A stretch of DNA of 64,000 bases from Candidatus Chlorohelix allophototropha (GCF_030389965.1 NZ_CP128402.1:1-64000); one strand, 5' to 3'. Shown: positions 1-38,192, counted from the first letter of the stretch. Translations and numbers: made by a program. Notes: generated from the sequence alone by a model not told the origin.

Positions 1-909
1 GTGTTGCTAGAACAACTATTCTACAAAATTGGTCTTCTAAGAGAAACCCAAAACGGCATTTTTATCCCGGAATCCTTTTCCTTTCCTTCCCGTATTCTAC
101 AGGTGTTGGTGGAACTTTACCGCCAGTATTTCCCTGAGAAGTGGCAGAGTTCCGAGGTTTCGCTAGAACTGCCATCAGGACAGGAACACGGCTACACTCC
201 TCGTGAGCTGGAATTTCTCAACCTCTGCCAGGCGCTGTTCCCCTTTTCCAGCGAGTATCTGGAGGAGATGGCCGAGGAAGGGGAGTATTCCACCGAAATC
301 CCGGTTTATTCGTTGGAAATAGACTGGTATGACACCGCTCCTTCTGACTTTGCTCCCTGTCTCCAAATCCTGTTGCTTTTGGCCGGCTGTGCTTCGCCGG
401 AGCAGTTGACGCTACCGGTCGAATATTCTCAGATCCTCTTACACCTGGAAGAATTTAACCGGGAGGTTGTTATGGAGCGGGAGGCTTATCTCCCACCCCG
501 GTTGGACTCTTATCTGGAGAGTTATACAAGCCGGAGTAGTCCGGCGGAAGAATGGTCCCCCTACTTTGGTAGCGACAATAAACGGCTTAAGGAGTTGTGC
601 CAGCTCAGGGATGATCCGCTGGCGCAGCTACCCCTGGCCCTTGACGCTATTTTCCACCAGACCGGTTGTGCCATGCTGGACGCCTCGGACGAAATGCCAA
701 TCGAGGCTTTCTGGGATAAAGAAAACCTGGACTGGCTGGCCCAGGAGACCCGGCAGGCCGAAGAGACCTGGCAGAAAATGGAAGAACTGGGGAACTGGCT
801 ACTGGCAGACCCCGCACACCTGGAGGTAGCTTTTGAGTTGTGGAAAGTGTTATACCGGGTACCGCTCAGGGAAGAAGGGGCGGTACCGGGAGAGGAGAAA
901 ACCGGATGA
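1..909 (+). CDS. Unrecognised protein, first gene of PRTRC-like operon (5' end may lie outside window)
   Basis: I do not recognise this family. The frame is open from the first base (GTG), so the true start may be upstream and the 302 residues a minimum. The protein is acidic and soluble-looking, with no signal peptide or membrane segment visible. The C-terminal 80 residues are rich in Trp and Glu and look helical (motifs such as LDASDEMPIEAFW and ENLDWLAQE). Its stop overlaps the start of the E2-like gene by 4 bases (ATGA), so it is translationally coupled to a PRTRC-type set. Inference: it is an accessory or substrate-binding partner of that ubiquitin-like system. It shows no beta-grasp-sized domain ending in GG, so I do not call it the ubiquitin-like modifier. 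Confidence 0.6.
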   Translation: MLLEQLFYKIGLLRETQNGIFIPESFSFPSRILQVLVELYRQYFPEKWQSSEVSLELPSGQEHGYTPRELEFLNLCQALFPFSSEYLEEMAEEGEYSTEIPVYSLEIDWYDTAPSDFAPCLQILLLLAGCASPEQLTLPVEYSQILLHLEEFNREVVMEREAYLPPRLDSYLESYTSRSSPAEEWSPYFGSDNKRLKELCQLRDDPLAQLPLALDAIFHQTGCAMLDASDEMPIEAFWDKENLDWLAQETRQAEETWQKMEELGNWLLADPAHLEVAFELWKVLYRVPLREEGAVPGEEKTG

Positions 910-1652
910 GTGAAGAAAGGGAACCTTACATTGCTCCAAAACTGAGCCTTAAAGAAGGGGCGGCAGCCTCACTGGTCCGTCCAGAAGCGGTGGTGGGGCA
1001 ACTGCTCTTTCTGGAAAACGAACAAGCCGTCTTTGGCTATCGTAACCGGCAGGGAGTGGAGCTCTGGAAATACCTCTCCACCGAGACTCTCCGGCAGGCT
1101 TTTAGTCAGTTGCCGGTGGATACAGGCTGGTTGCCGCCCGGTCTGGTACGCTGGGGTATTCTGGCCGGGCAGGAGTGGGCAGTGCAATTTATTCCGCCGG
1201 GTACTCATTCCCTCATTCTGTTGGAAGGGGTACAGGCAATAGAGCGACGCTTAAAAGTGCCCCTACCGGGGCTGGTGCTGGCCGGTAGCGGAACTAATTA
1301 CTACGTCTGGGCCACAAAAAGCCGGGGTTTTGATCCGGCCGGAAAGCTCTATCTGGCTCCCCTGCCCAACCTGGGCGGAAACGGATTGGTCTGTTACGGC
1401 AGCAACCGTGTACCCGAAACCTCTACCGGCACCATAGGAGAAGCCTGGAATATGTTTATCCAGACCCCTTTTAACGAGCACCAGGCCAATAACAAATGCC
1501 GCCGCCATCCTGAGGATGTGCGGCAACTACTCTACCGATTGGAAGGGTGCTCAAAGTTTCCGGTCAGAGAGCTGATCGGCTATAGCGGTCGAGAGGGGCA
1601 GCAGGTCACAGTCGCCCAGGCGGTAGAAAAATTAGTGTTAAAGGAGGCCTAA
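906..1652 (+). CDS. PRTRC system protein B-like (prokaryotic E2 family D)
   Basis: E2-like component of a bacterial ubiquitin-like conjugation system. The C-terminal half carries the pattern I associate with the PRTRC protein B family: a YYVWAT strand, a PLPN turn followed by GNGLVCYGS (the Cys is the candidate thioester residue), then W-x-x-F-x(3)-FNEH. I place the start at ATG 906, not the in-frame ATG at 840, because GGAGAGGAG precedes 906 and this gives a 4-base ATGA overlap with the previous stop. The next gene starts directly after this stop. Known: family B proteins occur with ThiF and JAB proteins, mostly on plasmids and integrative elements. Whether this one transfers a modifier is inference. 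Confidence 0.75.
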   Translation: MSEEREPYIAPKLSLKEGAAASLVRPEAVVGQLLFLENEQAVFGYRNRQGVELWKYLSTETLRQAFSQLPVDTGWLPPGLVRWGILAGQEWAVQFIPPGTHSLILLEGVQAIERRLKVPLPGLVLAGSGTNYYVWATKSRGFDPAGKLYLAPLPNLGGNGLVCYGSNRVPETSTGTIGEAWNMFIQTPFNEHQANNKCRRHPEDVRQLLYRLEGCSKFPVRELIGYSGREGQQVTVAQAVEKLVLKEA

Positions 1653-2420
1653 ATGTTGGATTACCTGATTTACCGGGGAGGGGTATTGCCTCCTCTAAAC
1701 TGTGCTCTGCGCTATGTGCTGGCCGGTAACGGGCTGCTATTACAGGCGTGGCGCGAGCATATAAATGTGCTGGTGGTACTGGCAAGCTATACGGTGCGAG
1801 GGCTTCCTCCTCTGGAGCCGTATTTATCTACGGATCTGCCGAGAATAAGCCCGGAGCTGCTAAGGCAGATGTTGGAGATATGCCACAAGCAGCGGGATGA
1901 AAAAGGCGAGATGTTGGAGGTGATATTTCACTTCCTGGTGGAAGGAGGGAAGTGGCGGATGGTAGTGCCTGAACAGGAGCAGGGTCACACCTATTGCCGT
2001 CCGGTAGGTCGGGGGGAAGAGAGCTACCGGCAGGCACTGCTGGAAATTCATTCTCACCACCATTTTCCAGCTTATTTTTCAGAGACTGACGACCTGGATG
2101 AGCAGGGGGGCTTCCGTTTCCTGGGGGTTATAGGCGACCTTTTCGATAAACCCCAGATCCGGCTAAGGTTGGGGATTTACGGCCATTTTATCCCGCTCCC
2201 GGCGACATTTCTATTAGCTCTACCGGAAGGATTGGAAGATGCCCTATCAGGGGAGAATGTTAACTTGCCGGTTAATAGACCGGGAAGCGTTGGAAATGCT
2301 GTTACCAATCGGCTCTGGCCAATTCAAAGGTGGAGCAAGATCTGGAAAGGTTGGACAGGATCTGGTAAAGGACAGAGGTGCTATGAAGTAAGAACGGGAG
2401 GTGCTGACGATGCGCTTTGA
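1653..2420 (+). CDS. JAB/JAMM-domain protein, PRTRC system protein A-like
   Basis: Predicted zinc-dependent isopeptidase of the Mov34/JAB superfamily, expected to process or remove a ubiquitin-like modifier. The JAMM signature is complete: EIHSHHHFPAYFSETDD at about residues 131-147 gives H-x-H (133, 135) and Asp 146 at the canonical ten-residue spacing. The flanking FSxxDDxDE and RLRLGIYG segments are typical of PRTRC protein A. ATG 1653 abuts the previous stop and is preceded by AAAGGAGG. The last 60 residues (after about 195) are low in recognisable structure and may be a variable tail. The gene overlaps the ThiF gene by 11 bases. Confidence 0.8.
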   Translation: MLDYLIYRGGVLPPLNCALRYVLAGNGLLLQAWREHINVLVVLASYTVRGLPPLEPYLSTDLPRISPELLRQMLEICHKQRDEKGEMLEVIFHFLVEGGKWRMVVPEQEQGHTYCRPVGRGEESYRQALLEIHSHHHFPAYFSETDDLDEQGGFRFLGVIGDLFDKPQIRLRLGIYGHFIPLPATFLLALPEGLEDALSGENVNLPVNRPGSVGNAVTNRLWPIQRWSKIWKGWTGSGKGQRCYEVRTGGADDAL

Positions 2421-3270
2421 TTATCTAAACGCCAAACCGGTACTGACCAGGTCCTGGAATAGCGCACTGGTGATGCTGGTGGGCTGCGGGGGAACCGGCT
2501 CGTACCTGGCGGTCCATCTAGCCAGGCTGACCGCCCTCCTTAGAAGTAAAGGTAAAGCGGTTACGCTGGCCTTTATTGATCCGGATTTTGTCGCTGAGAA
2601 GAATATTGAAAGGCAACACTTCTGCCGGGCTGAAATATCCAGGTCCAAGGCGGTCACCCTGGCGCGCCGGTATGGGGCCGCCTGGGGTCTGGAGATTGTG
2701 ACACTGGCAGAGCCATGTAGCCGCGAACTGGTCAGTCGGAAATTGGAGGGAGCCGACTTGGAACTGGTGGTGGGTTGTGTTGATAACGCCGCTGCCAGGC
2801 ACTCTATCGCCGAGTGGTTGCCGTTACCCGGTTGGGAAAGGCAGAAGCAGCGCTGGTGGCTTGACAGTGGTAACGAAAAGTCTGCGGGCCAGGTCTGCCT
2901 GGGAAATTGTAGCAGCCTAGAAGAGCTGAGAACTGCTTTTGAGCTTGCTGATTACTGCACCCGATTACCATCTCCGGCCCTTCAATTTCCTGATCTCTTA
3001 AAGCCCAGGAAAGAGGAAACTCAGACCGGTAAACTCTCCTGTGCCGAACTGGCATTACTTAATGAGCAGGGGTTGACGATAAATGCGGCGATGGCAGGGG
3101 TAGCGGCTGACTACCTGTTCCGGCTTATGCTAACTAGAGATCTCAAGCGGTTTTGTACCTGGCTAGACCTGGGAGCAGGCACTATGAGCAGCCGTTATAC
3201 CAGCCGGGAGGGGTTGAGGGAAACACTGGAATTACCCGAGGGTTTCTTCGACCGAGAGCCGGGGAAATAG
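2410..3270 (+). CDS. ThiF-family E1-like adenylyltransferase (PRTRC type)
   Basis: E1-like enzyme expected to adenylate the C-terminus of a ubiquitin-like protein. The N-terminal Rossmann motif VGCGGTGSYLAVHLARL, an acidic strand end (FIDPDFV) followed by KNIERQ, and VVGCVDNAAAR (the Asp that usually contacts Mg-ATP) are the E1/ThiF hallmarks. A C-terminal SCAELALLNEQGLTINAAMA segment matches PRTRC ThiF proteins. I prefer ATG 2410 (GGGAGG about 8 bases upstream) to GTG 2401. It is the last gene of the operon and is followed by an intrinsic terminator. No separate ubiquitin-like gene is visible downstream, so the modifier, if any, should lie to the left of the window. Confidence 0.82.
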   Translation: MRFDYLNAKPVLTRSWNSALVMLVGCGGTGSYLAVHLARLTALLRSKGKAVTLAFIDPDFVAEKNIERQHFCRAEISRSKAVTLARRYGAAWGLEIVTLAEPCSRELVSRKLEGADLELVVGCVDNAAARHSIAEWLPLPGWERQKQRWWLDSGNEKSAGQVCLGNCSSLEELRTAFELADYCTRLPSPALQFPDLLKPRKEETQTGKLSCAELALLNEQGLTINAAMAGVAADYLFRLMLTRDLKRFCTWLDLGAGTMSSRYTSREGLRETLELPEGFFDREPGK

Positions 3271-4043: not shown

Positions 4044-4877
4044 ATGATTTTTAACTCAGATTATTTTAGACTTACAAAAAAAACACCAGTGACAGAAGAG
4101 CAGCGAAGCCAAATGCTCAAGAACTTTTGTAATACTTGTATTAAGCCTTCACTCAACATTGAGTGTGGGAAAGTTTTCCAACGATTTTTCCTGGAGTCAA
4201 TCCAGTGCCCTTCTGAATTAAGTGAAACCCATCAGATTTGTACCTATTGTTTAGAACTCCATCGAAAAGATTATAATCATGTCTCTAATTGTATTTTTAT
4301 TAGAAATCAACTGACTATTAGGGCTGTGGGTTGGGCCACGCCTACATCTACAAAAATCCTGAATAATTTACACAAAATCAACTTCACTTATACACATCCT
4401 GTTTCTAATCTCCTTGTTGCTTTTCTTCAAAATTTTCTTTGGTCAGACTCAGTTATTGTTCCAATACCTCTGGGAAACTCTATATCTGAAACCAACGGAT
4501 GGTTTCAGGTTGTAAGTGGAGTTAGTTCTTATTTTCGAAGTGAAATAGTTCCTGCAATTATTCGTAATAAAAAAAAATCTACTAGGCAATCTAATTTTCA
4601 AGAACGACAAATTTTAACTAAAAATGAATATGAACTTGATAAAAATGTAGCAGTAAAATTATCAAATAAACGCATATTTCTCCTTGACGATAATATTACT
4701 ACAGGTGCAACTATTTTACATGCTGTAAATTTGCTTAGAGCTACAAATCATATTGAAATAATCCCAGTGGCAATTGAACGTTACGTTTCACCTCGTATTC
4801 TACAACGCTGTACAGGTTTATCTATAGAAGAAAAAAATTGTATTTTCCATCTTCCACAAAGGTTACCTGAAGTCTAA
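4044..4877 (+). CDS. ComF-like phosphoribosyltransferase-domain protein
   Basis: The C-terminal third has the type I phosphoribosyltransferase signature: RIFLLDDNITTGATILHA (about residues 212-229) is the PRPP-binding loop with two acidic residues and TTGAT. Earlier, VIVPIPLGNS resembles the ComF-type VPVPL strand, and RQSNFQERQ resembles the ComF RKTxxQxxL segment. An N-terminal Cys cluster (C-x2-C, later C-x2-C) could bind zinc as in ComF. The gene is AT-rich, 20 bases upstream of the DrmA-like gene and probably co-transcribed with it. A phosphoribosyltransferase is not among the DISARM core genes I know, so its role here is unknown: possibly nucleotide sensing or release of a nucleotide derivative. 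Confidence 0.65.
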   Translation: MIFNSDYFRLTKKTPVTEEQRSQMLKNFCNTCIKPSLNIECGKVFQRFFLESIQCPSELSETHQICTYCLELHRKDYNHVSNCIFIRNQLTIRAVGWATPTSTKILNNLHKINFTYTHPVSNLLVAFLQNFLWSDSVIVPIPLGNSISETNGWFQVVSGVSSYFRSEIVPAIIRNKKKSTRQSNFQERQILTKNEYELDKNVAVKLSNKRIFLLDDNITTGATILHAVNLLRATNHIEIIPVAIERYVSPRILQRCTGLSIEEKNCIFHLPQRLPEV

Positions 4878-4897
4878 ATAAGGAGAATGTTAAAATA

Positions 4898-7800
4898 ATG
4901 TTTTACCAACCAGCTTCATCTCGTTATCTACTTACTCAATGGATAAAAGAAATATTGGACTGGACTACCTATGATAGCAACGACCGTCTTTATTTAGATG
5001 AAATTAGTGCTTCTGAAGTTATCGATTTAACCTACTTAGAAGGTACTGTTCTTGATGAAGCTGTTGCAGCTAATGCACTTTTCCCTGCCAGTATTGTTCA
5101 GAATGAGGCGTATAGAGGAATTGGCACAAATTCCACAATGAGTGTTACTTTTCCTGTAAACATCGAAAACGCTGATTGGGCTTGTAAAATTCGTTTACGT
5201 GCTGCACTTCCATCACTTTTAGCAGTAGGAAGAGATCGGTTTTATCCAAATATTGAGCCAAACACCCAACCCCCTGAAGAAATGCTTTTCCCCTTAATTA
5301 ACGGCACACAATATGAACTACAAGAAGCAGCAGGTAACCGGTTGCGCGCTTTAGCTGGGCAACTAGAGGTTGTTGATTTTTCTCATACTTTCGATATAAA
5401 TATTCCAAGCGGAAATCAGGTAATTCCTGTTATCCAAAAGGGAATTAAAAATATCTATGCTTATATTGATGAACAAGATAACTTGCATTTAAATCAAAAC
5501 GAAAATAATTTACATCCAATACCGGCTGAACAACTTCCAGCAAACCTGCGATTTTTTTATCTCCAACGTAAAGTTAACGAGTGTTCTCTTCAACTAAATT
5601 TTTCCTGGAAACGTTATTCCCCTACCTCTGCCAAAATCACTATTTCACTCCACAATCAATCAAACGTAGAAAATACAAATCGCAACAATATATTGCTCAG
5701 TACCCTTATTTTACCTCATATGCAAATTACACTTGTCGGAGCGAAAGCTGATTTCCCGCTTCAACAGTATGCAGACGTAAAACAAAGCGTTATATCGCTT
5801 GATGAAGAGAGGCTTCATGAGGAAGCAGAAAAACGTCTCTATCAGGTGCCGCAGTCAGGATGTATCGCTACACTGCATCCTAGAGATAGTAGTAAATTAT
5901 CCTTAACTACTTTTGGAGTTTTCGACACCCCACGCGAAACCCCTGCTCCTGGGCCGAAGATTTCTGAAATAACTGTTAGTCCCGAGTCCTTTCTGAGTAT
6001 TTGTTCTAATCGCAATTCGCAATTTGATAGTTTTATAACTAATCATTGGGCAACGATTCGTAATATTTTACTTGCAGCTGCGGAAGCTTTTAAATTTGAA
6101 CGATTTCACCTATTCCAATGGGAAGCTATAACAACTGGTATAAAACTTGAATCTACTGGTCAGGAACGAACTGTTACTATTGTTCGTGCTCCAACAGGGT
6201 CTGGTAAAACAATTGTCTTTATGGTCAATGCTGCAATTTCTTCTCTATGTGGAAATCAACGTTCTACATCAATATTGCTTTTTCCTACCCGTATTTTGAA
6301 CGAAGATATGTTTCGTCGTCTTACTGCTTTTGTTTATCAAATGCGCCAAAAATTGCCTGAGCTGAATGTTACTGGTGGATTATTAATGGGTGCAAGTGAC
6401 CCACTTTATCGGTTGGTTCTTAAACCTGCTGTAGGTGAAGCAATGTACTACTTTGGCAAGTGTCCTGCCTGCGGGCATGCTCCATTGGTAGCACAAAGAC
6501 ACTCTGCTTTAAATGAGATAGATGCAAAAATATTAGCCAGCTGTCCTAAGTGCAACCATATTATTAACTATATGCGTAACCCACATGAAGTAGCTACTTT
6601 TTTACCTGATATTATTATTGCTACTCCAGATAAACTCTTTCACGTAGCTACTGTAAAATCCTTTGAACAATATGGTTACGGTCTTTTTGGATCTCCTGTA
6701 CGTTATTGTCAGATTTGTGCCCGCGCTTATACAGATGCAGGTTTGCAACTAAAACCTCAAAAATTTTTATGCAATCAAATTTTTTCTGACTCAACTTGCC
6801 CCGGTACCTTCACGTCTAACGCCATTAGCAAACCAATTCGTTATATGGGTTTTGACGAAGTTCATAGCTTGTATGGTGAATCTGCTACATATCTTTCTGT
6901 ATTTCTCTCTACTCTTGAAGCGATGCAACGTATTCTATCTAAGCAAAGTACTCTGTCTATACGTTATGAAACCGCTACTGCTACAATTGCAAATGAGACT
7001 CAGCTCCTTGAAGCCATTACACGTAAAGACACAACTAAGGATGAGATCATTCCTATTCCTGCCACAAACCAGCTTACAGACTATTTTCTTATTCAGCCTA
7101 AAACTGTCCGCTATCGTGTTTTGGTCAATATGCCAGCGCGCATATCTTCGAAACAGGCTTTCCTCCGCGCTGTTCTGAATTCCCATCTACATTTACGAGG
7201 CAGATATAACCAAGCACCCGATCTTAAAGAAATACTACAAAATATTACTACTAAACCCACCTCTTGGGATTTTTTACTTGGTTATGTTTTTAAAAAACAA
7301 GACGGATTCGACCTACAACGGTCTTTGAGGGATTTTTATCGGAATCGTTACGGCCAAAGCCTCAATATAGATTTTTTAAGTGGTGAAGCTCCTAAAAACA
7401 AAATTAGTGAGATTATTCAGAAAGCTATATCAGGTCAATTAGACCTTCTTCTTGCAAATTTGGTTATTAGTTTAGGAATTGACATCCAAGACCTTAACCA
7501 TATGATAATGTTTGGAGTTCCCAAAGGTTTTACTGAGTACGTTCAGACGGCAGGGCGTACAGGACGTGGTTATTTTAGTGGTCATGTCAATATTATTTTG
7601 CTTCCAGCTTACCCGCGTGATGTTTATCTTTATCGACATTTTCATGCTGTCTTATCCGATGTTTCAGGATATTACGACGCACTTCCAGTAAAGAGTACTA
7701 ATCTTTATTGCTCTGATCAAATTTTTGGTAATGTTGCTAAAGCTCTTTTAAGCTCCTTCTGTTTGCGCGAACCTAAATGGGCGAACGCGAACGGCGTAAA

Positions 7801-8191
7801 TCAAGTTATATCCAATATTGGAAGAAATGATTTTAACAAAGGTCTTAATATACTTAAAGGTGGGATTTCTCGGGTGCTTTGCAATGACGAAGAACTTAGA
7901 ATCGATACTAATACAATTGTTAATGATAAAAGTCGCAGGCTTTTTCAAGAATTAAGAACACAGAATGAGTTTTTAATTAAAGTTATGACTGAATCTAGCG
8001 AACAATGGCTCACTTATAGCCTACGCGGTCGTGCTAATAATATTGTACGTATTAATTGTATTGATCAGGGACTCCTGGATTTAATTGGTGCTACTACTGA
8101 TCCTGAACAAGAAGAAATGGACGAGCCCGTAGAGATCTTGGTTGGTACTGCTAATCCTGAACCTGTAATACTTGAAGAGGAGAACCTTTAA
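4898..8191 (+). CDS. DrmA-like superfamily 2 helicase
   Basis: Large SF2 helicase resembling DrmA of DISARM. The N-terminal ~420 residues have no motif I recognise. Helicase motifs: Walker A APTGSGKT near residue 433, DEVH box (GFDEVHSLYG) near 652, and motif VI QTAGRTGRG near 883. Between motifs I and II are Cys pairs (CPACGH, CPKCNH, then CQIC) that probably bind zinc, as in helicases paired with DUF1998 proteins. The length (1097 aa) is in the usual DrmA range. The stop shares one base with the start of the next gene (TAATG), so the pair is translationally coupled. Known: DrmA and DrmB work together in DISARM. Inferred: this pair does the same. The assignment rests on domain order and neighbourhood. 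Confidence 0.72.
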   Translation: MFYQPASSRYLLTQWIKEILDWTTYDSNDRLYLDEISASEVIDLTYLEGTVLDEAVAANALFPASIVQNEAYRGIGTNSTMSVTFPVNIENADWACKIRLRAALPSLLAVGRDRFYPNIEPNTQPPEEMLFPLINGTQYELQEAAGNRLRALAGQLEVVDFSHTFDINIPSGNQVIPVIQKGIKNIYAYIDEQDNLHLNQNENNLHPIPAEQLPANLRFFYLQRKVNECSLQLNFSWKRYSPTSAKITISLHNQSNVENTNRNNILLSTLILPHMQITLVGAKADFPLQQYADVKQSVISLDEERLHEEAEKRLYQVPQSGCIATLHPRDSSKLSLTTFGVFDTPRETPAPGPKISEITVSPESFLSICSNRNSQFDSFITNHWATIRNILLAAAEAFKFERFHLFQWEAITTGIKLESTGQERTVTIVRAPTGSGKTIVFMVNAAISSLCGNQRSTSILLFPTRILNEDMFRRLTAFVYQMRQKLPELNVTGGLLMGASDPLYRLVLKPAVGEAMYYFGKCPACGHAPLVAQRHSALNEIDAKILASCPKCNHIINYMRNPHEVATFLPDIIIATPDKLFHVATVKSFEQYGYGLFGSPVRYCQICARAYTDAGLQLKPQKFLCNQIFSDSTCPGTFTSNAISKPIRYMGFDEVHSLYGESATYLSVFLSTLEAMQRILSKQSTLSIRYETATATIANETQLLEAITRKDTTKDEIIPIPATNQLTDYFLIQPKTVRYRVLVNMPARISSKQAFLRAVLNSHLHLRGRYNQAPDLKEILQNITTKPTSWDFLLGYVFKKQDGFDLQRSLRDFYRNRYGQSLNIDFLSGEAPKNKISEIIQKAISGQLDLLLANLVISLGIDIQDLNHMIMFGVPKGFTEYVQTAGRTGRGYFSGHVNIILLPAYPRDVYLYRHFHAVLSDVSGYYDALPVKSTNLYCSDQIFGNVAKALLSSFCLREPKWANANGVNQVISNIGRNDFNKGLNILKGGISRVLCNDEELRIDTNTIVNDKSRRLFQELRTQNEFLIKVMTESSEQWLTYSLRGRANNIVRINCIDQGLLDLIGATTDPEQEEMDEPVEILVGTANPEPVILEEENL

Positions 8192-9975
8192 TGTCTAAGA
8201 CAACTTTACTCTCTCCCGCCGCTGTAATTTTCAAAGTATATCCTGATGCATTTTGGAATTCTTCTAATGCGATAACTAAAGTTGTGTATATTGATAATGC
8301 TGATGGGGACACTCGCAATCGAATGATTACTCACGTTCTTCAACGTCTTGCCCAACATTTAACAAGAGAGCATGACAAAGTTGAGTTACATTTTCAAGAG
8401 CAACAACGTCGTAGAAATCTACAACAATTGCAACTTTCTACAACTACCTCGGCTGCTGATAATGGGGAACAAGACTTTGACTTCAGTGAAATTTTTGGTG
8501 ATTTACCCTTAATGGAAGAAGATCTAGATACTACTATTGACGCAACCCAATTTCCTCCTGTCCGTGCAAGTCATATAAGCTTCATCTTAGTAAACGAACA
8601 AGCAAAGGTACGTACTAAACTTTATCCACGTACTTTCCACTGCAAATATTGTGGTCATTTTCTTGCCCTTAATCCTGCACGACCCCCTCTTAATCTTACA
8701 TGTCCTTGTTGCCGTCATGACCAGCTTATTCAAGAGCCTATTGTTTTTGGGTGCGCTCGTTGTGCTAATGTCATAGAACTTTTTCCTAAAGGAGAACGTT
8801 CAAATTCTACCCCTACCAATCGGCGGACAATTAATATTGATAACTTTTTAGGCACACCTCCTCCTTGCCCAGAATGCAGTTCCGGACATATTCATCTCGA
8901 AAAACACAATACTAATAATCTAGTTTCTTGGCAATGGAAGTGCAATTCTTGTAAGCAATATTTAGAAAACGTTCAAGAACTTTGTTTAAAGTGTTATTTA
9001 CCTAAAGAAAATTCCGATGACAAAACAGATATTACTTTTATGAGTGCCTTTCCAGCTTCTGCTTCAAATGCTCTTCATCCTCTTGTAGATGTTCAAATGT
9101 TTCTCAAAGATGAACCTCTTGAACCAGCTACCTTTCCTACAGCCGCAATAGAAAGTGCTCAGAATTGGGCAGATTACTTCGAGTTAAAACCGCTTGCAAA
9201 TATTACAAATTCTATTTTAGACCTAGACAAGATAGAAGTAATTGAGAATGCTTGCATTTCAAATGCATATCTTCTTAATCGTGTGCGCGTTGTTACTACT
9301 ATTTATGGTTATCAGGCTGGTGACATCATGAAGCATCCTCGCTCACCCGTCCAACTCCCTGATCGCCTTGCACGTTTTTTTAGAGATCCAGAGGGCTTAA
9401 CTGATTATCAATGTTTTGGAATGATCAATGAAGGATCAGCCCTAGTTATAGAGTTAGATAAATCAAAAATCATTGAACGTCTTTCACAGCTTTATCCTTA
9501 TATAACTACATCTTATAATGACTTGTTACAAACAGAACGCGAGGAACTTGGTATTATTCCATTACGTGAACTACTACAACCTATATCTCTACAACATAAT
9601 CAATTTCCATTAATAAGTGCGCTACATGCCTTAGAGCATGCCATACTCATTAATGCACATCGTCAAATTGGCAATGAAGTTCTTGGTTCTATATTATTTC
9701 CACAGGCGGGAGTGATTCTCTTATACGAACGTGAGTCAATCGGACGGGGTGGCGTAGTTCAGCTAATAAACCGTGGACAAGGGTTAGTCAAACTTATTTT
9801 GGCTGCTACTGACCATGTTAATGGTTGCGCCCAAGGGTGTTTTGATGGATGTCCTAGTTGTAGTTATATCAATGATATGTATTGTCAGTATCATCAGGAA
9901 GATTTTAATAATAGATGGTTACCACCTAACATTTTGCTTTCTAGAACAGGAGGTAGAAGCATTCTTAAGTCATAA
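8191..9975 (+). CDS. DrmB-like DUF1998 protein
   Basis: 594 residues, close to DrmB length. Several zinc-binding Cys pairs lie in the first half (CKYCGH, CPCC, CARC, CPEC, CNSC, CLKC). The C-terminus ends with the DUF1998 (MZB-type) cluster GCAQGCFDGCPSCSY near residues 545-560, preceded by HALEHAILINA, a segment typical of DUF1998 proteins. DUF1998 proteins are the usual partner of a large SF2 helicase in DISARM and in Dpd-type systems. The gene is coupled to the helicase gene by a one-base overlap, and 52 bases separate its stop from the stop of the convergent methyltransferase gene. Confidence 0.74.
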   Translation: MSKTTLLSPAAVIFKVYPDAFWNSSNAITKVVYIDNADGDTRNRMITHVLQRLAQHLTREHDKVELHFQEQQRRRNLQQLQLSTTTSAADNGEQDFDFSEIFGDLPLMEEDLDTTIDATQFPPVRASHISFILVNEQAKVRTKLYPRTFHCKYCGHFLALNPARPPLNLTCPCCRHDQLIQEPIVFGCARCANVIELFPKGERSNSTPTNRRTINIDNFLGTPPPCPECSSGHIHLEKHNTNNLVSWQWKCNSCKQYLENVQELCLKCYLPKENSDDKTDITFMSAFPASASNALHPLVDVQMFLKDEPLEPATFPTAAIESAQNWADYFELKPLANITNSILDLDKIEVIENACISNAYLLNRVRVVTTIYGYQAGDIMKHPRSPVQLPDRLARFFRDPEGLTDYQCFGMINEGSALVIELDKSKIIERLSQLYPYITTSYNDLLQTEREELGIIPLRELLQPISLQHNQFPLISALHALEHAILINAHRQIGNEVLGSILFPQAGVILLYERESIGRGGVVQLINRGQGLVKLILAATDHVNGCAQGCFDGCPSCSYINDMYCQYHQEDFNNRWLPPNILLSRTGGRSILKS

Positions 9976-10027
9976 AATATTTTAACAAATTTATTTAACA
10001 GTCTTATTAACTGATCAGCCTAGAACT

Positions 10028-11125
10028 TTACTTTGCCATCTCTAATAATAAATTTTCATTCGTTTCCAAGGTTTCTTCATTTGGATTTGGATTCTCTTGA
10101 GTTAAGAAAGCAATTATTTGTCTTGTGACTACCTCTGACAGTAAAGGTGGTATAGCATTTCCAACCTGCCTATATTGGTCAGTTTGATTTCCAGCAAAAA
10201 CCCAATCATCTGGAAAGCCTTGTAAACGGGCAGCCTCTCGGACTGTTAAATGTCGTGGTTCAAATGGATGAATAAATGGCCTACCTCCTCCTCTGGTTGA
10301 GCCCACTAAAACTGTTCCACTCGGTCTATCCCAAGCTAATCTATCAGTGTGGTCAATTCTATCTCTAGCTCCTTGTACAAGTTGCTCGTATCTTGTACGC
10401 ACTCGTTCACTATGAATTCGTCTTTCGTTGTTTGCTAGACCATCTGGCATATTTTCTAACACATCACGCACACAACGATAAATTAAACCATTTCTATTAT
10501 TGCCAATGGCATCTGGTGGAAAGTACGTTGAGTCAGGCGGAACTAAACCTCGTACTTCCATGCCTTCTCTAAAACCAATTATGAAGACTCGTCTTCTAAA
10601 CTGTGGAACACCAAAATTCACTGCATCTAGTACCCAAGTAAGTGTATTTAAGTATCCTGCTTCAGTAAATAAGTCTATTACTTTTTGATAAGATTTCCCT
10701 TTATCCACACTTAAAAATCCTGCCACATTTTCCATCACAAAACACTTTGGCTGTATTTCCCGTACTACCCGCACAAATTCGAGCATCAGGTTTCCTCTTG
10801 GATCTTCAAATCCTTGGCGATTTCCTAAAATGCTAAAAGACTGGCACGGTGGACCTCCAACTACTAAATCAGCCTCTTTAATTGCTAAATTAGCTCTTTG
10901 CAGTATTAGATTGCTATTAATTTGGTATAAATCTCCTCCGAAATCTCCTTCGTTGTCTCCAATTACATTTAACGATGGTCGGTTAAGTCTAATAGTTTCT
11001 CTAGCTGCCAAACTTATATCTAAACATACTCTCAAATCAATTTGCACATTTGACTTGTAGGCGGCTTGTTCTATTCCAAGATCTAACCCAAACCCACCTG
11101 AAAACAAACTAATATACTTTAGCAT
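10028..11125 (-). CDS. DNA (cytosine-5) methyltransferase
   Basis: All key C5-MTase motifs are visible: SLFSGGFGLDLG (motif I, AdoMet), VVGGPPCQSFS with the catalytic Cys near residue 95 (motif IV), FVMENVAGF (motif VI), QFRRRVFIIG (motif VIII), and ARLQGFPDDW then QVGNAIPPLL (motifs IX-X). The target-recognition segment (about 190-270) is short. It faces the DrmAB-like genes on the opposite strand and shares their AT-rich composition. Class 2 DISARM uses a C5 methyltransferase (DrmMII) to mark self DNA, which is the likely role here. An orphan or restriction-linked MTase is the alternative; no endonuclease gene is adjacent. Confidence 0.9.
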   Translation of the reverse strand: MLKYISLFSGGFGLDLGIEQAAYKSNVQIDLRVCLDISLAARETIRLNRPSLNVIGDNEGDFGGDLYQINSNLILQRANLAIKEADLVVGGPPCQSFSILGNRQGFEDPRGNLMLEFVRVVREIQPKCFVMENVAGFLSVDKGKSYQKVIDLFTEAGYLNTLTWVLDAVNFGVPQFRRRVFIIGFREGMEVRGLVPPDSTYFPPDAIGNNRNGLIYRCVRDVLENMPDGLANNERRIHSERVRTRYEQLVQGARDRIDHTDRLAWDRPSGTVLVGSTRGGGRPFIHPFEPRHLTVREAARLQGFPDDWVFAGNQTDQYRQVGNAIPPLLSEVVTRQIIAFLTQENPNPNEETLETNENLLLEMAK

Positions 11126-11439: not shown

Positions 11440-12959
11440 AAATAATTGTAACAGTTCAGACCAAAAGCTTGGGAAGGGGAGGTTGCCCACAAAAAGTGTC
11501 AAGGAGCGCAACCAACAAGTTTTCACCTTGCTTTTTCATGGTGGAAAGGTAGCCTCTTATCCGACAAAAGAAGCTGGCACCTTCCTGGCTGCGAAAACAA
11601 CCTGAAACCTTTTGTTGCACTTTAACCATCCGAATATCACGCTCGGCCAGATTGTTATCAAAAGGCACATCAAAACGGTAGGCAAACAGCAGCACTTGAT
11701 GACGCTGTTTATCCAGCCGATCCAGTAAGTTCTTAGGCTTGCTCTGCCGGGGCTTGCCCCGTTTTCCACAAGGCCAGCCACCCTGGGGAGGAGGATTAGC
11801 TGCCAGACCCTGTGCGATCAATTGCTGGTAGCGCTCTTCGAAATGCGCTAACCGTGCACTGCTTAAACTGGTTTCAGACCTAGCCCTGGCGACTTCCACT
11901 TCTTCTTTCAAGTCCACAAGAAGGGTGGTGAACTCAGCCGCCCACGCCTGCTTGAGTTGTTCGTAGACAAAAGCAAGTTCCCTGAGATGATGGGCGTTAC
12001 ACAGACCGTGGGTACAGGCATAGCGCAGATAGTTAGACCAACCATCGTGGATCGCTGCGCCCTGGAAAGCCGGTAAAATCCCAATCTCGTCTGTGGCTTT
12101 ACTACCTCGCCGTAAATGGTGAGCATAGTGGGTTAAATGTGGTGTGCTGGCTACGTGCAGCCAGTGGCGCTTGCCTTCTACATACAACCCGGTTTCATCG
12201 CAATGTAACACTTTGGCCTGGGTAAGCGCTGTCTTGATGGTTTTTTCTGGCTCAGCCAATTGCTCGTAGCACTCCGCTATCATATTGACCAAACTGCCGG
12301 GTGAAAGACTTTCGCTGTAGATTTCATTAAGTAGCTCGCACACCCGGGCATAAGGCAGCAGTTGATAAGTGATCAGGTAAACTGCCAGAGCCCGAAACCC
12401 AGGTCCGTATTGCACCCAATTCTTGACGGACTGCGGGAATTTGGCTTTGGTAACAGTCTGACAAGTAGGACACTTTTTGCTGTAAGTGCGGTGTTCGGTG
12501 ACGTGCAGTTTGAGTTGAGTAGGCAGCTCAAAAACCTGACGAGGCTCGAAGTGAGGTAGCGCTGCTTCTTTGGTTAAGTCAGTCTGGCACTTTTCACAGG
12601 TGGTGGGCAGATGCGCAATCACTGTATCCGGGTTTTCGCTTTGTTTAAGAGCCTGACCCTCGTGACCAGGTTGACCACCCGGTTTCTTACCGCTGGATTT
12701 GCGCAAGCTGCGTTTTTTGGGCGAGCGCTTAAACCCGTCGGAAGAAGGCGGTTTGGAAGAATTATGGCTATCTTGAGAGAGCCGGGCTTCAAGGGTTTGA
12801 ATACGTTCTATCAGTTGGGCAATCAAAGCTGCCTGTGAAGCGGCTTTAGCTTCAAGTTGGGCGTAATCGTTTTGAAGTTGGGCTAATTGCTCTTCTAATG
12901 TCATTTTATTAGTCTACCAGCCTCGTCAACTGACCCTGGCTGAATTGTTACAAATAATT
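11440..12959 (-). mobile_element. IS66-family insertion sequence with 8-bp target duplication
   Basis: The element spans 11448-12951 and is flanked by perfect direct repeats AAATAATT (11440-11447 and 12952-12959), the 8-bp target duplication characteristic of IS66. Terminal inverted repeats start GTAACA and share GTAACArTTCAG. It carries only the large transposase gene (no tnpA/tnpB), as in the ISBst12-like IS66 group. Intact ends, an intact gene and a perfect duplication indicate a fairly recent insertion. Confidence 0.9.
11456..12904 (-). CDS. IS66-family transposase (TnpC)
   Basis: 482 residues, full length for a single-gene IS66. The N-terminal coiled coil (residues 1-45, QLAQLQNDYAQLEAKAA) is followed by the conserved SxxSSKPPSSD motif, a basic KKPGGQPGHEG stretch, and a CxxC-type zinc finger (CEKCQTDL, CPTC). 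The DDE core shows VLHCDETGLYV (first Asp), AIHDGWSNYL (second Asp) and DNNLAERDIRMVKV (Glu). The gene ends 8 bases inside the left terminal repeat. It probably encodes an active transposase. Confidence 0.92.
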   Translation of the reverse strand: MTLEEQLAQLQNDYAQLEAKAASQAALIAQLIERIQTLEARLSQDSHNSSKPPSSDGFKRSPKKRSLRKSSGKKPGGQPGHEGQALKQSENPDTVIAHLPTTCEKCQTDLTKEAALPHFEPRQVFELPTQLKLHVTEHRTYSKKCPTCQTVTKAKFPQSVKNWVQYGPGFRALAVYLITYQLLPYARVCELLNEIYSESLSPGSLVNMIAECYEQLAEPEKTIKTALTQAKVLHCDETGLYVEGKRHWLHVASTPHLTHYAHHLRRGSKATDEIGILPAFQGAAIHDGWSNYLRYACTHGLCNAHHLRELAFVYEQLKQAWAAEFTTLLVDLKEEVEVARARSETSLSSARLAHFEERYQQLIAQGLAANPPPQGGWPCGKRGKPRQSKPKNLLDRLDKQRHQVLLFAYRFDVPFDNNLAERDIRMVKVQQKVSGCFRSQEGASFFCRIRGYLSTMKKQGENLLVALLDTFCGQPPLPKLLV

Positions 12960-20595: not shown

Positions 20596-23500
20596 TTACC
20601 TACGTTTAGCGATAGAAGTACCATCTACTAACCGGATTTCGTAACCCTGCTCAAATGATTCAAAGAATTCTTCTTGATGCGATACCAGGATAATGCGGGC
20701 GAGCATATCTTTAAGCTCGTGCAAGACATCAATCATTTCCTGCCGCCCTTCTTTGTCCAGGCTACCAAAGCCTTCATCAATTATAACCGACTCCCCTAAC
20801 CTACCGCTACGACTGGCGTAACGACCCATACCTAAAGCCAAACTGACGGCTACCCGAAATTTCTGGCTACCACTCAGGTAAGCTACCCCAATGCTTTTGA
20901 CATTATCGCCATCCCGGATGAGGGCTTCCAAATCCAGGGAACTCCCCACAAGTTTGAGTTGAATCGTTCCGTTGGAAAGGTTGTCCAGAATTTGATTTGC
21001 ATTACTTACAATACCCTTTTCAGCTTGATCAAGCAAGTGACGCTGGAGATGATTCGGTCCAAGAAGGTCTGCCAGTGTTTTATGTAATAGGGCTTGATGG
21101 TTGGCCTCTTGACGTTGGTTTTCCAAATTGGCCCTTTGCTGATTAACGTTCTGAATGATACGTAGTTGCTCCTCAGAAGCCTCGCGCTGACCTCTGGCTT
21201 TTTCCAAAGCTTTCTGGGCTGTGGTTTCCTGCTGTTCTACCTGTTGGGCGGTTAGTTTTTCTTCGGGCGGTATCGCCTCAAGTTGAGCCCTAACCATGTC
21301 AAGCTGTCGCTTTAACGACACAAAACCATAATGAGCTTCTGCTAGTTTTTCAAGGCGAGCGGGTGCGCCAACTAACTTTCTAGCTTCAACTTCCCAGGCT
21401 TTTACTTGCTCCAGCGTAAGAGTAGCAACCTGACTTTGCCAGTCTGCCTCCAGGGAATCGCGCTGTTGCTGCAAGGCCCGGCGGATTTCTGCCTGTTTGG
21501 TTAGCTCGTTTTGGACCGCATTAGCCGCATTCTGGCGAGACTCTTTGACCTTGTCCAAATCCTTCTGCAACTTATTTTGCTCTTTAGTGGCAGTAACGAA
21601 CTGCGGTTGCACTTTTTGGGTTTCCAGGTTAGCCAGGGCCTCCAAGTTCTCAGCTTCCTGGTTAGCTTCAATAATTTCCTGACGGCGAGAACTGGGATAC
21701 TGCTCCTGGTAGGTCACAATCTTTTGCTGAACTTCTTCAAGTTTAGAAACCAATAACTGACGCTCATTAGCCCGCTTTTGAAGCTCTTCAAACTCTTTCT
21801 TTGCTCTTGGATAGCTATCATTTTGTTGTTTCAACCTCGTCAGCACCTCAATTTGAGGATAGGGCAGGCCAAAACAGGCTACAATTCCGGCCTCAAGGTT
21901 AAAGTTAGCACGATATTGTTCGGGTAACTGACTAATAACCTCACGTCCAGCTTTTTCAGTCCGCATTTTGTCACGTTGAGACGTATCCAGATGATTTTGT
22001 ATTTGTTGCCGGTCCAAACCTGACTGCCTCAGCTTTTCCCCATGAGCTGTAAAAGAGGCTATGGTAGCTTGTTCCTCTTTTTCTAGGGCAGTGCAGCACT
22101 TTCTAGCTTCAAGAGTCGTTTGTTTAGCTTCCGCCACTATTCCTTCAAGCTGGGCGCGTTCAGTCTCAATATGTTCAGGCGTTAATTCCTGCCCACAATA
22201 GTCGCAGGTGGGCTTTCCCTCAATTTGTTTAAACCGCTTGAGTCGATTTTCAAGTTCCTTTTGTAAGGTTTCGCTCGTTGTAGATATTACTTTTGCTGTT
22301 GCTACCGCCTGTCCAGCCTCGGTTTTCAGCTTTTCGGACTCAGCTAGTGACTTTTGTAATTCAACTATATGGGCATCAATATTTCGCAAGTCTTGCTGGT
22401 GTTGATTTTCCTGCTCATCGGCCTTTTGCCACTCTTGGCGGGCATCGGTATAGCGGCGCAAGGGGTCTAGCACTACTCTAGCCTTATCAGCTTCTCCCAC
22501 TAGCTGAGTTTGGGCATATAGCTGCTCTGACAAATTCAGGGGAAACCCAACCAACTGCTTCTCCAGGGCCTCTAGATTTTTTTCATTTTTTCCCCACTCA
22601 CCAATCGCAAATACAGCCTGGGAAAGTTCGAGCTTGATCTGTAATGCTTCTTTTTGCTGGTTTTTGGCGGCATTAAATGCTTTAGTCAGCTCTATTACCT
22701 GCTTTTCGGCATTTTCGAGAGCGGTAGTAAGTTGGGCTACATTAGCGGCCAGCTTTTGTTCTTCCTGATGGTAGTTTTCGCCTAAACGATTGCTCTCATC
22801 CAGGCGGTTTTGTTCTTCCTGTAAACGCCGCAATATTGGCAGGGCCGCCCCAAGAGAGTGGTAACGTTCGGCATTAATTTTTATTTCATCTTCCTCTGAA
22901 AGTAAATTTTCAGCCTCGGCTACTTGAGCATTTTGGGTAATTTCTTCTGCCAACAATTTTTGCCAATTTCTGGCCTTTTCTTTTAGCCCAGCCAGCTTCA
23001 CCAGTAGATTTTGAGCTTGAGCCTCAGATTCTTGAGCCACTTTAACCGCCTCTTCGGCGAAGGCAACTTGTTCTTCAGTATATTCTGGCAACTTCCCGAT
23101 TTGCCCCATTAATACTCTGACATTTACTGAAAATTCATTTGAATGTTTTTTTGTAAGTTGATATAAGCGGTCAAAGTTATCCAGTTTTACAAGTTGTTTT
23201 AACATTTCCAGTTTAACAGGAGCTTTAGCCTGTAAAATTACATCTGCCTTTCCCTGCAATAATAGGAAAGAAGCGGTATACGCCTCATAATCCAGTCCGA
23301 TGGTATTCTTTACCCATTCTTCAAACTGGCTATCACCCTCCGTCCCTGGTATGGACTGTTCCCCTTCACGGTTGAAGTAAGGTCGGCTAGGCCCACATAC
23401 ATGAATTGCCTGACGGCTGGCTCTACCCTTGCGGCTCTGAGTCCGCTTCACTCGATAGATATCCTGATCCATCTGGAATTCAAACTCAACCAGTAATTCG

Positions 23501-23706
23501 GTTGAGTCTTTATTGATCAGCTCGATGGCATCCTGTTTACCGCCACGATGCTCCTTGAACAAAGCAAAAGTGATAGCGTCAAAAACGGCAGATTTACCAT
23601 GCCCATTTCGCCCGAAGAGAACCCAGAGAGTGGCATCCCGAAAATCCAGGGTTTGTTCTTCCCGATAACTGAGAAAGCCCTTTAGTTTGACCTTAAGAGG
23701 AATCAT
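20596..23706 (-). CDS. Rad50/SbcC-family ATPase
   Basis: Coiled-coil SMC-like ATPase that partners Mre11 in DNA end processing. Walker A is FGRNGHGKS near residue 34. Two long coiled-coil arms flank a zinc hook CDYCGQELTPEH near residue 500, which dimerises Rad50 through Zn. The ABC signature is YLSGSQKFRVAVSLAL and Walker B is VIIDEGFGSLD near the C-terminus. At 1036 residues it has normal SbcC/Rad50 length and no missing motif. It is the last gene of the operon and overlaps the Mre11 gene by 4 bases. Within the operon it should load on DNA ends with Mre11 and hand them to HerA-NurA. Confidence 0.93.
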   Translation of the reverse strand: MIPLKVKLKGFLSYREEQTLDFRDATLWVLFGRNGHGKSAVFDAITFALFKEHRGGKQDAIELINKDSTELLVEFEFQMDQDIYRVKRTQSRKGRASRQAIHVCGPSRPYFNREGEQSIPGTEGDSQFEEWVKNTIGLDYEAYTASFLLLQGKADVILQAKAPVKLEMLKQLVKLDNFDRLYQLTKKHSNEFSVNVRVLMGQIGKLPEYTEEQVAFAEEAVKVAQESEAQAQNLLVKLAGLKEKARNWQKLLAEEITQNAQVAEAENLLSEEDEIKINAERYHSLGAALPILRRLQEEQNRLDESNRLGENYHQEEQKLAANVAQLTTALENAEKQVIELTKAFNAAKNQQKEALQIKLELSQAVFAIGEWGKNEKNLEALEKQLVGFPLNLSEQLYAQTQLVGEADKARVVLDPLRRYTDARQEWQKADEQENQHQQDLRNIDAHIVELQKSLAESEKLKTEAGQAVATAKVISTTSETLQKELENRLKRFKQIEGKPTCDYCGQELTPEHIETERAQLEGIVAEAKQTTLEARKCCTALEKEEQATIASFTAHGEKLRQSGLDRQQIQNHLDTSQRDKMRTEKAGREVISQLPEQYRANFNLEAGIVACFGLPYPQIEVLTRLKQQNDSYPRAKKEFEELQKRANERQLLVSKLEEVQQKIVTYQEQYPSSRRQEIIEANQEAENLEALANLETQKVQPQFVTATKEQNKLQKDLDKVKESRQNAANAVQNELTKQAEIRRALQQQRDSLEADWQSQVATLTLEQVKAWEVEARKLVGAPARLEKLAEAHYGFVSLKRQLDMVRAQLEAIPPEEKLTAQQVEQQETTAQKALEKARGQREASEEQLRIIQNVNQQRANLENQRQEANHQALLHKTLADLLGPNHLQRHLLDQAEKGIVSNANQILDNLSNGTIQLKLVGSSLDLEALIRDGDNVKSIGVAYLSGSQKFRVAVSLALGMGRYASRSGRLGESVIIDEGFGSLDKEGRQEMIDVLHELKDMLARIILVSHQEEFFESFEQGYEIRLVDGTSIAKRR

Positions 23707-24929
23707 GCCTGCACCTCATTTTCTTCCATCAAGCGATTAGCTAGTTCACGTATTTCCTCCCCCAAGGATTGGTCTGACTGTTTTTTTAACTCCTCGTTCA
23801 GATAGTTTCGGACAATTTCTTTCCAGGGCTGGCTAAAATCGAAATTAGTGAGCGGACTATTCCCTATATCAAGCCCGAATTGTATGATGTCACGTTTATA
23901 CCAATTAGGGAAAATCTCCTCAATTCTATGCATTAGGACATCTCGATTGTGGGTAGTCGGATGATAATGCAGGTTGTAACTTATCAATGCTTCGTTATGG
24001 TCGGGATAAATATCGGGCAGGTGGTCTATCTGTTCAGGGTCGGTAATATCAAGCTGATAAATAGGGCTACACTCTAGCGACAATAACTTAGGTACGTCTA
24101 CCCGCCGCCCATTTTTTATTTCCAGATAAACCACACTCTTTTGGTCTTCTTTTTCGCCTAGGTCAAGCCGCTCAATACTCCCGGCGTAACGAACGTGGTC
24201 AGCTCCAGGTATTGCCCTCTGCGATTTATGGATATGACCATAAGCCGCATAGGAAAAATGGGAAGGGATTTGGGAAGGCTCAAAAACAACATCTTCGTTT
24301 TCGGTAAGGTGGAACAGGTTATGGACTTGTGCGCCCCGCACATGCACATGGCTGACCAATACCGAGGGTTGTGAACGCTCCAACATTTCCTGGATGCTAC
24401 TCAAAACTAAAGTGTAGGCTTCCTGGAGGTTGCGGTTTTTTTCAGCAAGATTTGTATAATTTAACTTTTCGTCGCGTAGATAAATACTAGCACGCGGGTA
24501 GGGCATCAAGACAAATTGGACAACCTGCTCCTCTTTATCAATAAGCCGTACAAGGTCAGGCCGGGAGCTGATATAAAAACCACCACTATAGCTACCATCT
24601 GGTTTTTTAACCCCGGTTGGTAGCATAGAAATCGTGGTACGAAGCGTTTCAAAGAAAACCTCGTTATCATGATTACCGCTTATGGCGACTATTGAGCCAC
24701 CCCGATAAAGAAAGGGCGAAAAAACTTCCTTGAAATCATCCATAGCGTCACGACGCTGTTCAGCTCGTAGTCGGTCACTAAAAATATCCCCTGACACTAT
24801 CATTACCTCTACCTGGTATTCCTCAAGATAGCGGGCAATTTGGTAAAGAGATTTTTTGATGTGAGGGCGACGCTCAATCCGACCAAGCCTATCGCCCAAA
24901 TGCCAATCAGAGGTGTGTAGAATCTTCAT
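23703..24929 (-). CDS. Mre11/SbcD-family DNA exonuclease
   Basis: Calcineurin-like metallophosphoesterase with all Mre11 motifs: MKILHTSDWHLGDRLG at the start, VMIVSGDIFSDR, AISGNHDNE, VLVSHVHVRG and AAYGHIHKSQ. These supply the Asp, His and Asn ligands of the two-Mn site. I choose ATG 24929 over the upstream in-frame start at 24995, because MKILHTSDWH is the near-universal start of this family and AAGGAA precedes it. The C-terminus has a basic helical Rad50-binding segment. It forms the nuclease subunit of the Mre11-Rad50 complex encoded by this operon. Confidence 0.93.
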   Translation of the reverse strand: MKILHTSDWHLGDRLGRIERRPHIKKSLYQIARYLEEYQVEVMIVSGDIFSDRLRAEQRRDAMDDFKEVFSPFLYRGGSIVAISGNHDNEVFFETLRTTISMLPTGVKKPDGSYSGGFYISSRPDLVRLIDKEEQVVQFVLMPYPRASIYLRDEKLNYTNLAEKNRNLQEAYTLVLSSIQEMLERSQPSVLVSHVHVRGAQVHNLFHLTENEDVVFEPSQIPSHFSYAAYGHIHKSQRAIPGADHVRYAGSIERLDLGEKEDQKSVVYLEIKNGRRVDVPKLLSLECSPIYQLDITDPEQIDHLPDIYPDHNEALISYNLHYHPTTHNRDVLMHRIEEIFPNWYKRDIIQFGLDIGNSPLTNFDFSQPWKEIVRNYLNEELKKQSDQSLGEEIRELANRLMEENEVQA

Positions 24930-25004
24930 ATTCGAGGTTCCTTGAGTTAGGGAAGTGACCTTTACGGGGACGAATAATCCTGGGTACAAAGCCACTCCCG
25001 CAAA

Positions 25005-37600: not shown

Positions 37601-38063
37601 TGGCTACTTTCCGACTCTCCACTTTGGCTTGCTCTTCAAAGCGCAACCGCAAGATTTCCTGTTTCTGTTTCTCCAGTTCGCGGGCTTCGGGGGCATTGAC
37701 TGCGGTAAGCAGACGCTGAATGCTGTCCAAGGCGCGATAGGCATCGTCTAGGGTAAAGGCTTGTTGGTGCGCCCAATTATTGCGTACCGTCCGCAATTCG
37801 CTGACTAAGCTGCGCTCGCTCTGCCCCAGAGTGCGGTTAAAAACGATATTCCACTGATCCCACATGATTTTGAGCAGCGGGGCGGCATCCCAATTGGCAA
37901 AGGGCTGGTTGTTCAGGGCGTAGTCGTTAGCCAGCGATTGCCGAGCGTAATCCATCCAGCCATCTTTGTACAATGCCTGAAATTCTCGCTGGAAATAGGG
38001 TTTCAAGCCATCTCTCAGCAAATCCAATCCTTTTGATACTCTATCCCGGTTGCTCAATGCCAT
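34695..38063 (-). CDS. Swt1-type HEPN plus DUF499 AAA ATPase
   Basis: 1122 residues. The N-terminal ~125 residues form a Swt1-type HEPN domain with RNNWAH (R-x4-H, near 94-99), the RNase active-site motif of HEPN toxins. The DUF499 ATPase follows, with TNFGGGKTHSML (Walker A, near 250) and LILIDEWVAYLRML (Walker B). A charged coiled-coil (RQIEEEDATRRAAEARRERERAE) precedes the C-terminal domain. Proteins of this type accompany DUF1156 methyltransferases in defence loci. The ATPase probably senses or moves on DNA and the HEPN domain could act as an RNA-cleaving effector. The second point is inference from the intact motif. Confidence 0.87.
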   Translation of the reverse strand: MALSNRDRVSKGLDLLRDGLKPYFQREFQALYKDGWMDYARQSLANDYALNNQPFANWDAAPLLKIMWDQWNIVFNRTLGQSERSLVSELRTVRNNWAHQQAFTLDDAYRALDSIQRLLTAVNAPEARELEKQKQEILRLRFEEQAKVESRKVAIAPIEGQPAAGYRPWREIVTPHTDVARGTYQQAEFAADLGQVYRGEGTDEYRDPRSFFQRTFLTEGLKTLLSGALKRLSGTGGDPVVELQTNFGGGKTHSMLALFHLFSGAIPGDLLGVEEILKEAGVTTLPKVQRAALVGQALSPAQPQRKADGTEVFTMWGELAWQLLGRDGYELVAESDRKGVSPGSDILRQLFSAAAPCLILIDEWVAYLRMLYGKYDLTGGSFDSNLTFAQALTETARAVPRTLVVASLPASDIEIGGEGGREALSRLRNTFGRMESAWRPASAEEGFEIVRRRLFEPITEPSLYTARDAVVKAFTEMYRTQSAEFPSACREADYERRMKAAYPIHPELFDRLYNDWSTLEKFQRTRGVLRLMAAVIHALWERDDRSLLILPANVPVDDSTVQTELTRYLDDTWVPVIEKDVDGQHSLPLRLDRENPNLGRYSAARRVARTLYLGSAPTLNTANKGLDDQRIKLGCAQPGESVATFGDALRRLTDQATHLYVDGKRYWFSTQPSVNRLAQDRATQQKDDDIYLEILARLRVEQKDQKNRGDFSAVHLAPANSSEVPDERETRLVMLAPEHWHSRNAKDSPARKEVGIILDQRGSSPRRYRNALVFLAPDSARYKDLEQAVRQYLAWKSIEDERETLNLDNFQSNQAKVKRGQADDTIKQRIPETYIWLLVPGLPSPNAPNTELEWEELGLQGSDPLAVRASKKLKNQELLITQLGATRLKMELDRIPLWRGERNGADVGVKQLVDDFAQYLYLPRLRDPHVLTESIQAGVASMMWESETFAYAEGWDSQWEKYRGLKTGQITSVILDGESLVVKSEVAQRQIEEEDATRRAAEARRERERAEKAGNPPPPAHIRKLEPDVPDERDVPPIDTLKKEGLHRFHGSITLDALRLSRDVGTISEAVIQHLAGLLRSKVKITLEIEADLPEGTPDNVVRTVTENCRTLKFEQFGFEEN

Positions 38064-38078
38064 CTATATTCCTCCAAT

Positions 38079-38178
38079 ATTCCATTTTAGATTTTGGATT
38101 GCCGATTTTGGATTGAATTCCCTAATCTAAAACCCCAAATCTCCTAGATTGCGAGTTCCCTGTCTTTAATCTAAAATC
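38079..38178. repeat. 100-bp direct repeat, copy A
   Basis: Identical over 100 bases to 38576-38675 as far as I can compare by eye. AT-rich, with internal imperfect inverted repeats built from TTTTAGATTTTGGATT and AATCTAAAATC. The two copies bracket the four-helix-bundle gene. Confidence 0.85.
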
Positions 38179-38192
38179 TAAAATCCGATCCT

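Follow-up and report, generated by a model that had tools for sequence, protein, structure and literature searches.

The locus described here raises the question of what a ComF/ShosT-like phosphoribosyltransferase (PRTase) does at the head of a DISARM-like gene set that has no DrmC nuclease. Four intact open reading frames make up this locus, within a 64,000-nt stretch of Candidatus Chlorohelix allophototropha (NZ_CP128402.1) (hereafter the window; Table 1). Our best explanation, to which we give about an even chance, is a DISARM-like system belonging to a separate DrmA/DrmB clade, in which a ComF-like PRTase effector would stand in place of the DrmC PLD nuclease.

Table 1. Features of the window; the four open reading frames of the locus occupy positions 4044-11125.
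Feature	Position	Strand	Length (aa)	Remarks
PRTRC-type cassette	840-3270			Prok-E2_D, JAB and ThiF domains
ComF/ShosT-like phosphoribosyltransferase (PRTase)	4044-4877	+	277	PRPP loop; two CxxC pairs towards the N terminus
DrmA-like (YprA-family) SF2 helicase	4898-8191	+	1097	Motifs intact
DrmB-like protein	8191-9975	+	594	Cysteine-rich
C5-cytosine DNA methyltransferase	10028-11125	-	365	Convergent with the other three genes
Transposase-like gene	11456-12904	-	482	Higher GC; named by reading the sequence
SMC/AAA and calcineurin-like phosphoesterase pair (SbcCD-like)	20596-24995	-
Protein kinase with TPR repeats	31166-33367	-
HMA system	34695-46726	-		HmaC, HmaB and HmaA, each >1100 bits (PADLOC)
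Type I-D CRISPR-Cas	47533-63336			Cas1, Cas6, Cas7d, Cas10d, Cas3d and a long array

The product of the leading gene matched PF00156 with E=7.5e-6 (25.8 bits, slightly below the Pfam cut-off of 26.3) and TIGR00201 comF with E=4.8e-11, yet far beneath the cut-off of that family. Among the PADLOC models it matched ShosT (E=1.9e-13) and PsyrT (E=2e-5), leaving ShosT, followed by ComF, as its best named relatives. Its PRPP loop reads LLDDNITTGAT (residue 213). Sequence searches of the PDB with this protein returned just weak PRTase-superfamily matches, a profile combining it with the second PRTase described below reached ShosT structures at E=0.08, too weak for use, and its single-sequence structure prediction had a pLDDT of 31. 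No second copy of the PRTase was found by a whole-genome search of the same genome, and plasmids and phages searched with the PRTases yielded no useful match.

The helicase matched the PADLOC DrmA model PDLC02573 (E=7.7e-61) and carries Walker A APTGSGKT at residue 431, DEVH at 653 and GRTGRG at 886; it scored 49.8 bits against NCBIfam DrmAS, for which the cut-off is 950. Its downstream neighbour, the start of which overlaps the end of drmA by one base, matched PADLOC DrmB (E=3.1e-18), and its C-terminal cysteines are kept across the relatives described below. This protein had no match to Pfam DUF1998, and a DrmB profile had no match in the PDB; the best solved structure for a profile of the clade helicases was DrmA 7s9v (E=6.9e-17). 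The methyltransferase matched PF00145 (E=7e-64) with motifs PPCQ and ENV present, its top PADLOC model being a generic type II MTase; its match to DrmMII PDLC02650 had E=2.5e-62. The initial annotation, which had been made from the sequence of the window, was right about the intact PRPP loop of the leading gene and about the absence of DrmC and DrmE from the window. The coupled pair of a DrmA-like helicase and a DrmB-like DUF1998 protein that it described holds as a pair, with no Pfam DUF1998 match, and the methyltransferase, which it had likened to that of class 2 DISARM, is indeed a convergent C5 enzyme but is not supported as a class 2 one, given its generic best model and a helicase that falls outside that class.

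Other expected partners were sought. A tblastn of three class 2 DrmE-position proteins (one of them annotated as DrmE) against the window gave nothing below E=0.15, no DrmD was found by PADLOC among the four genes, and a SNF2 helicase tried as DrmD (43160-46726) was rejected, fitting HmaA far better. Pfam searches of the four genes and of upstream genes gave no DprA-like antitoxin domain. A DrmC-like PLD was absent from the window, and in the whole genome (95% complete) the best values obtained were E=0.004-0.006, for two weak matches on another contig, both of them 348-aa frames and about 450 bases apart; a DrmC hidden elsewhere in the genome was ruled out by this whole-genome search. The absence of DrmC would by itself be ordinary, because published DISARM works without it.

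The PRTase and drmA genes are separated by 20 nt, with a ribosome-binding-like AAGGAG before the drmA ATG. GC content is 33-39% in the four locus genes against 47-54% in the other window genes measured, and the transposase-like gene forms the boundary of this low-GC block. On account of this common low GC, the four genes were probably imported jointly as one block, the methyltransferase included. Judged by gene content, the locus lies in a defence island. The window also encodes an HMA system, a type I-D CRISPR-Cas system, an SbcCD-like pair and a TPR-containing protein kinase. The CRISPR array has 37-nt repeats and at least 63 units; the spacer ending at repeat 47895-47969 recurs identically at 48920-48994, and part of the array may therefore have been duplicated. 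The PRTRC-type cassette suggests a plasmid or mobile element.

Relatives were sought with a hand-made DNA pattern for helicase motif V, scanned over 84,980 species with one genome each. It matched five loci, all of them genuine relatives with 32-38% identity and E values under 1e-120; two are from haloarchaea and one each from a Heimdallarchaeon, a Nitrosopumilus and an Anaerolineales bacterium. Through profile searches around these, the haloarchaeal class gained three more members and the Nitrosopumilus phylum two, and a plasmid collection supplied one from Haladaptatus. No relative turned up in an earlier scan of genome contigs with a two-row alignment, or in viral contigs scanned with patterns made for DrmA, DrmB and the PRTase. 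The clade sample thus consists of 12 loci (the window and 11 relatives), obtained with one motif and with profiles in a limited set of 1,996 genomes; genes in the relatives were called as plain ORFs, and two contigs (L041 and L049) end near the locus. Among the loci found, the members besides the window are archaea and the one Anaerolineales bacterium. In a maximum-likelihood tree the 12 clade helicases stood apart from four class 2 DISARM DrmAs with support of 100/100, and class 2 membership of the window locus was rejected on this placement and on the lack of DrmE. By sequence comparison, DrmA and DrmB are assigned to a separate, well-supported and rare clade that is DISARM-like, not class 2.

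This rarity bears on one alternative, that the locus is a decayed DISARM-like remnant conferring no protection: neither DrmB nor DrmA, when searched against 400 genomes from the window's phylum, gave another clade member, transposase-like genes adjoin the locus and the genome lacks a DrmC-like nuclease, but all four frames are intact and keep their active-site motifs, and we consider decay very improbable.

A DrmC-like PLD gene lies directly after drmB in 10 of the 11 relatives, and no PRTase was found at any of these 10 loci (six-frame search in nine, predicted genes in all ten). At the remaining locus, from an archaeon of the Nitrosopumilus phylum (G812), a 249-aa ComF-like PRTase is encoded 12 nt after drmB, which puts it in the slot of DrmC, a gene not found there; the sister of this locus in the tree (G1532) has a PLD in that slot. 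The archaeal PRTase matched PF00156 (E=1.1e-9), PsyrT (E=1.2e-13), ShosT (E=7.9e-12) and comF (E=4.6e-9), the top PADLOC matches of both PRTases being the defence PRTases ShosT and PsyrT. The two are 28% identical to each other, and both match ComF-like families weakly. Ten PLD-only against two PRTase-only loci gave a Fisher p=0.015, a figure to be taken as a guide, because the loci are related to one another and the window served as the seed. Across these 12 loci, PLD and PRTase thus appear mutually exclusive, a pattern of apparent substitution and not of random absence. The neighbourhood search proposed in the initial annotation therefore had a divided outcome, with the PRTase absent in 10 of the 11 relatives but in a pattern of substitution. 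Its suggestion was that a nucleotide-handling enzyme replaces or supplements the usual accessory genes; replacement gains support from the two-to-ten exclusion and the archaeal PRTase in the DrmC slot, but a ShosT/PsyrT-like effector role is likelier than general nucleotide handling.

In the DrmA tree the two PRTase loci lie far apart, and grouping them was rejected (AU p=4.9e-7); in the DrmB tree the deep branching of the clade is unresolved, and the supported branches alone are compatible with a single origin. The PRTase precedes drmAB in the window and follows drmB in the archaeon, a difference in gene order that is expected if there were two separate events. By the DrmA tree, at least two separate exchanges of the PLD for a PRTase are predicted, to either side of drmAB, the DrmB tree allowing one origin. 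By chance, on the assumption of roughly one ComF-like gene per genome, we would expect a ComF-like PRTase there at about one locus in a thousand, and any type of PRTase at about one in a hundred. As the exchange recurs in a distant archaeon, the combination of PRTase and DrmAB is probably real.

Several further genes were seen at the related loci. In the archaeal PRTase operon, the PRTase is followed by a 262-aa gene that matches no Pfam family (L047:6392-7180), and a 465-aa gene (homologue at L056:15795-16679) precedes drmA with a PD-(D/E)XK gene farther upstream (both within L047:12637-16529). Two other archaeal loci have a gene of 638-761 aa immediately before drmA (L046:13704-15620 and L048:16812-19097); these are 32% identical and match no Pfam family save for a weak C-terminal Alba match in one. 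TGT/DpdA-like and DUF6884 genes adjoin sister drmA-drmB-drmC loci (L046:15953-18446, L048:9449-10927, L045:286-1969, L045:3642-5627 and L043:17356-19099) in a Nitrosopumilus (which also has QueC and QueD), a Heimdallarchaeon and haloarchaea. It is possible that these sister loci are DISARM-Dpd hybrids with a split helicase.

Under the main rival explanation the PRTase would be a passenger independent of the system, an orphan ComF- or ShosT-like gene that came to lie ahead of drmAB, and DrmAB and the methyltransferase would need no DrmC or would draw on a host nuclease. Defence islands collect unrelated genes, the PRTase is missing from all relatives but one, and DrmC is dispensable and frequently missing in DISARM (PMC9142583), so that its absence requires no replacement. 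Against a passenger stand the second ComF-like PRTase, which occupies the DrmC slot in a distant relative, the exclusion between PRTase and PLD, and the close spacing to drmA, and we regard this explanation as serious but rather unlikely. The second rival would place the PRTase on the marking side, as an enzyme that makes or transfers a modified base or nucleotide for labelling self DNA, with DrmAB attacking unlabelled DNA. The TGT- or DpdA-like genes beside four relatives (L043, L045, L046 and L048), joined in the Nitrosopumilus by QueC and QueD, would suit such a role, but the window already has a methyltransferase and a C5 MTase lies near the archaeal PRTase locus; moreover, PRTases of this kind are toxins in known defence systems, and the exclusion seen is with PLD, not with TGT or MTase. 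We hold a marking role to be improbable.

A replacement of DrmC by a PRTase effector is argued for by the 20-nt spacing, the exclusion of PLD and PRTase, the non-sister position of the PRTase loci, the lack of DrmC in the genome, the ShosT and PsyrT matches, the low-GC block within a defence island, and published precedents. RqlH is a RecQ-like helicase fused to a PRTase, the toxicity of which requires the PRPP pocket and is restrained by the helicase domain and the partner RqlI (PMC4670107). In E. coli, a DprA-PRTase pair gives defence against T7 and lambda, and the PRTase is suggested by the authors to be its effector (PMC9122126). DrmAB is autoinhibited and activated by 5'-overhang DNA, and its ATPase is weaker on methylated DNA (PMC9142583). 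Counting against this reading are the existence of just two PRTase loci, one being the seed, with differing gene orders, the low identity of the two PRTases and their weak ComF-like matches, the lack of a DprA-like antitoxin among the four genes, and the PD-(D/E)XK gene upstream of drmA in the archaeal operon, where the nuclease was perhaps not wholly lost.

We infer by analogy with these systems that the PRTase is the effector, and likewise its target and any protection against phage. The C5 methyltransferase would mark self DNA, and DrmA-DrmB would load on unmarked DNA that is entering or being replicated and exposes 5' single strands, where translocation by ATP hydrolysis might in itself hinder phage. 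Engaged DrmAB would then release or activate the PRTase, which would consume PRPP and so poison nucleotide or DNA metabolism; at rest, the PRTase would be restrained by DrmAB or by the methyl mark, DrmAB thus acting as both sensor and brake. Tentatively, and with a little less than an even chance, we propose that the clade has a modular effector slot in which a toxin-type, PRPP-using PRTase repeatedly replaces the PLD, giving a non-nucleolytic DISARM-like system.

With DISARM the locus shares separate DrmA-like helicase and DrmB-like genes, a DNA methyltransferase nearby and, for the clade profile, DrmA 7s9v as the best solved match; it differs in having four genes without DrmC, DrmD or DrmE, in missing the curated DrmA cut-offs, in the added PRTase and in lying outside class 2. 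ShosTA, PsyrTA and RqlHI likewise have a ComF-like PRTase with an intact PRPP loop, joined in PsyrT and RqlH to an SF2 helicase, whereas here a DrmA/YprA-like helicase is encoded by a gene of its own, DrmB and a methyltransferase are present and a DprA-like partner is lacking. The sister loci recall Dpd and BRIGADE in adjoining TGT/DpdA-like genes (once with QueC and QueD) and in having PLD nucleases. The window locus, in contrast, has no TGT/DpdA or QueC/QueD genes (tblastn of the window with the relatives' DpdA- and TGT-like proteins gave a best E=0.024 over 29 residues), and the Dpd helicase is unsplit (PMC12458937) whereas DrmA and DrmB are separate here. The competence pair ComFA-ComFC also combines a helicase with a ComF-type PRTase, but the helicase of this locus is not ComFA and it lies in a defence island with a methyltransferase. 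A survey of YprA-family helicases covers DISARM, Dpd, Druantia, ARMADA, BRIGADE and TALON, and its main text makes no mention of a phosphoribosyltransferase or ComF (PMC12458937). The literature searched contained no paper in which a PRTase or ComF forms one system with DISARM or DrmA, and the available part of the one paper naming both (PMC9122126) treats them apart. The parts are thus of known kinds, and their combination and the exchange of a nuclease for a PRTase appear to be new.

What degrades DNA in DISARM after recognition by DrmAB is an open question (PMC9142583), and the locus bears on how DISARM stops phage once DrmAB has recognised DNA. If a PRTase takes the place of the nuclease in this clade, DrmAB would be a sensor to which different effectors attach, and a link would exist between DISARM and the poorly understood PRTase toxins ShosT, PsyrT and RqlH.
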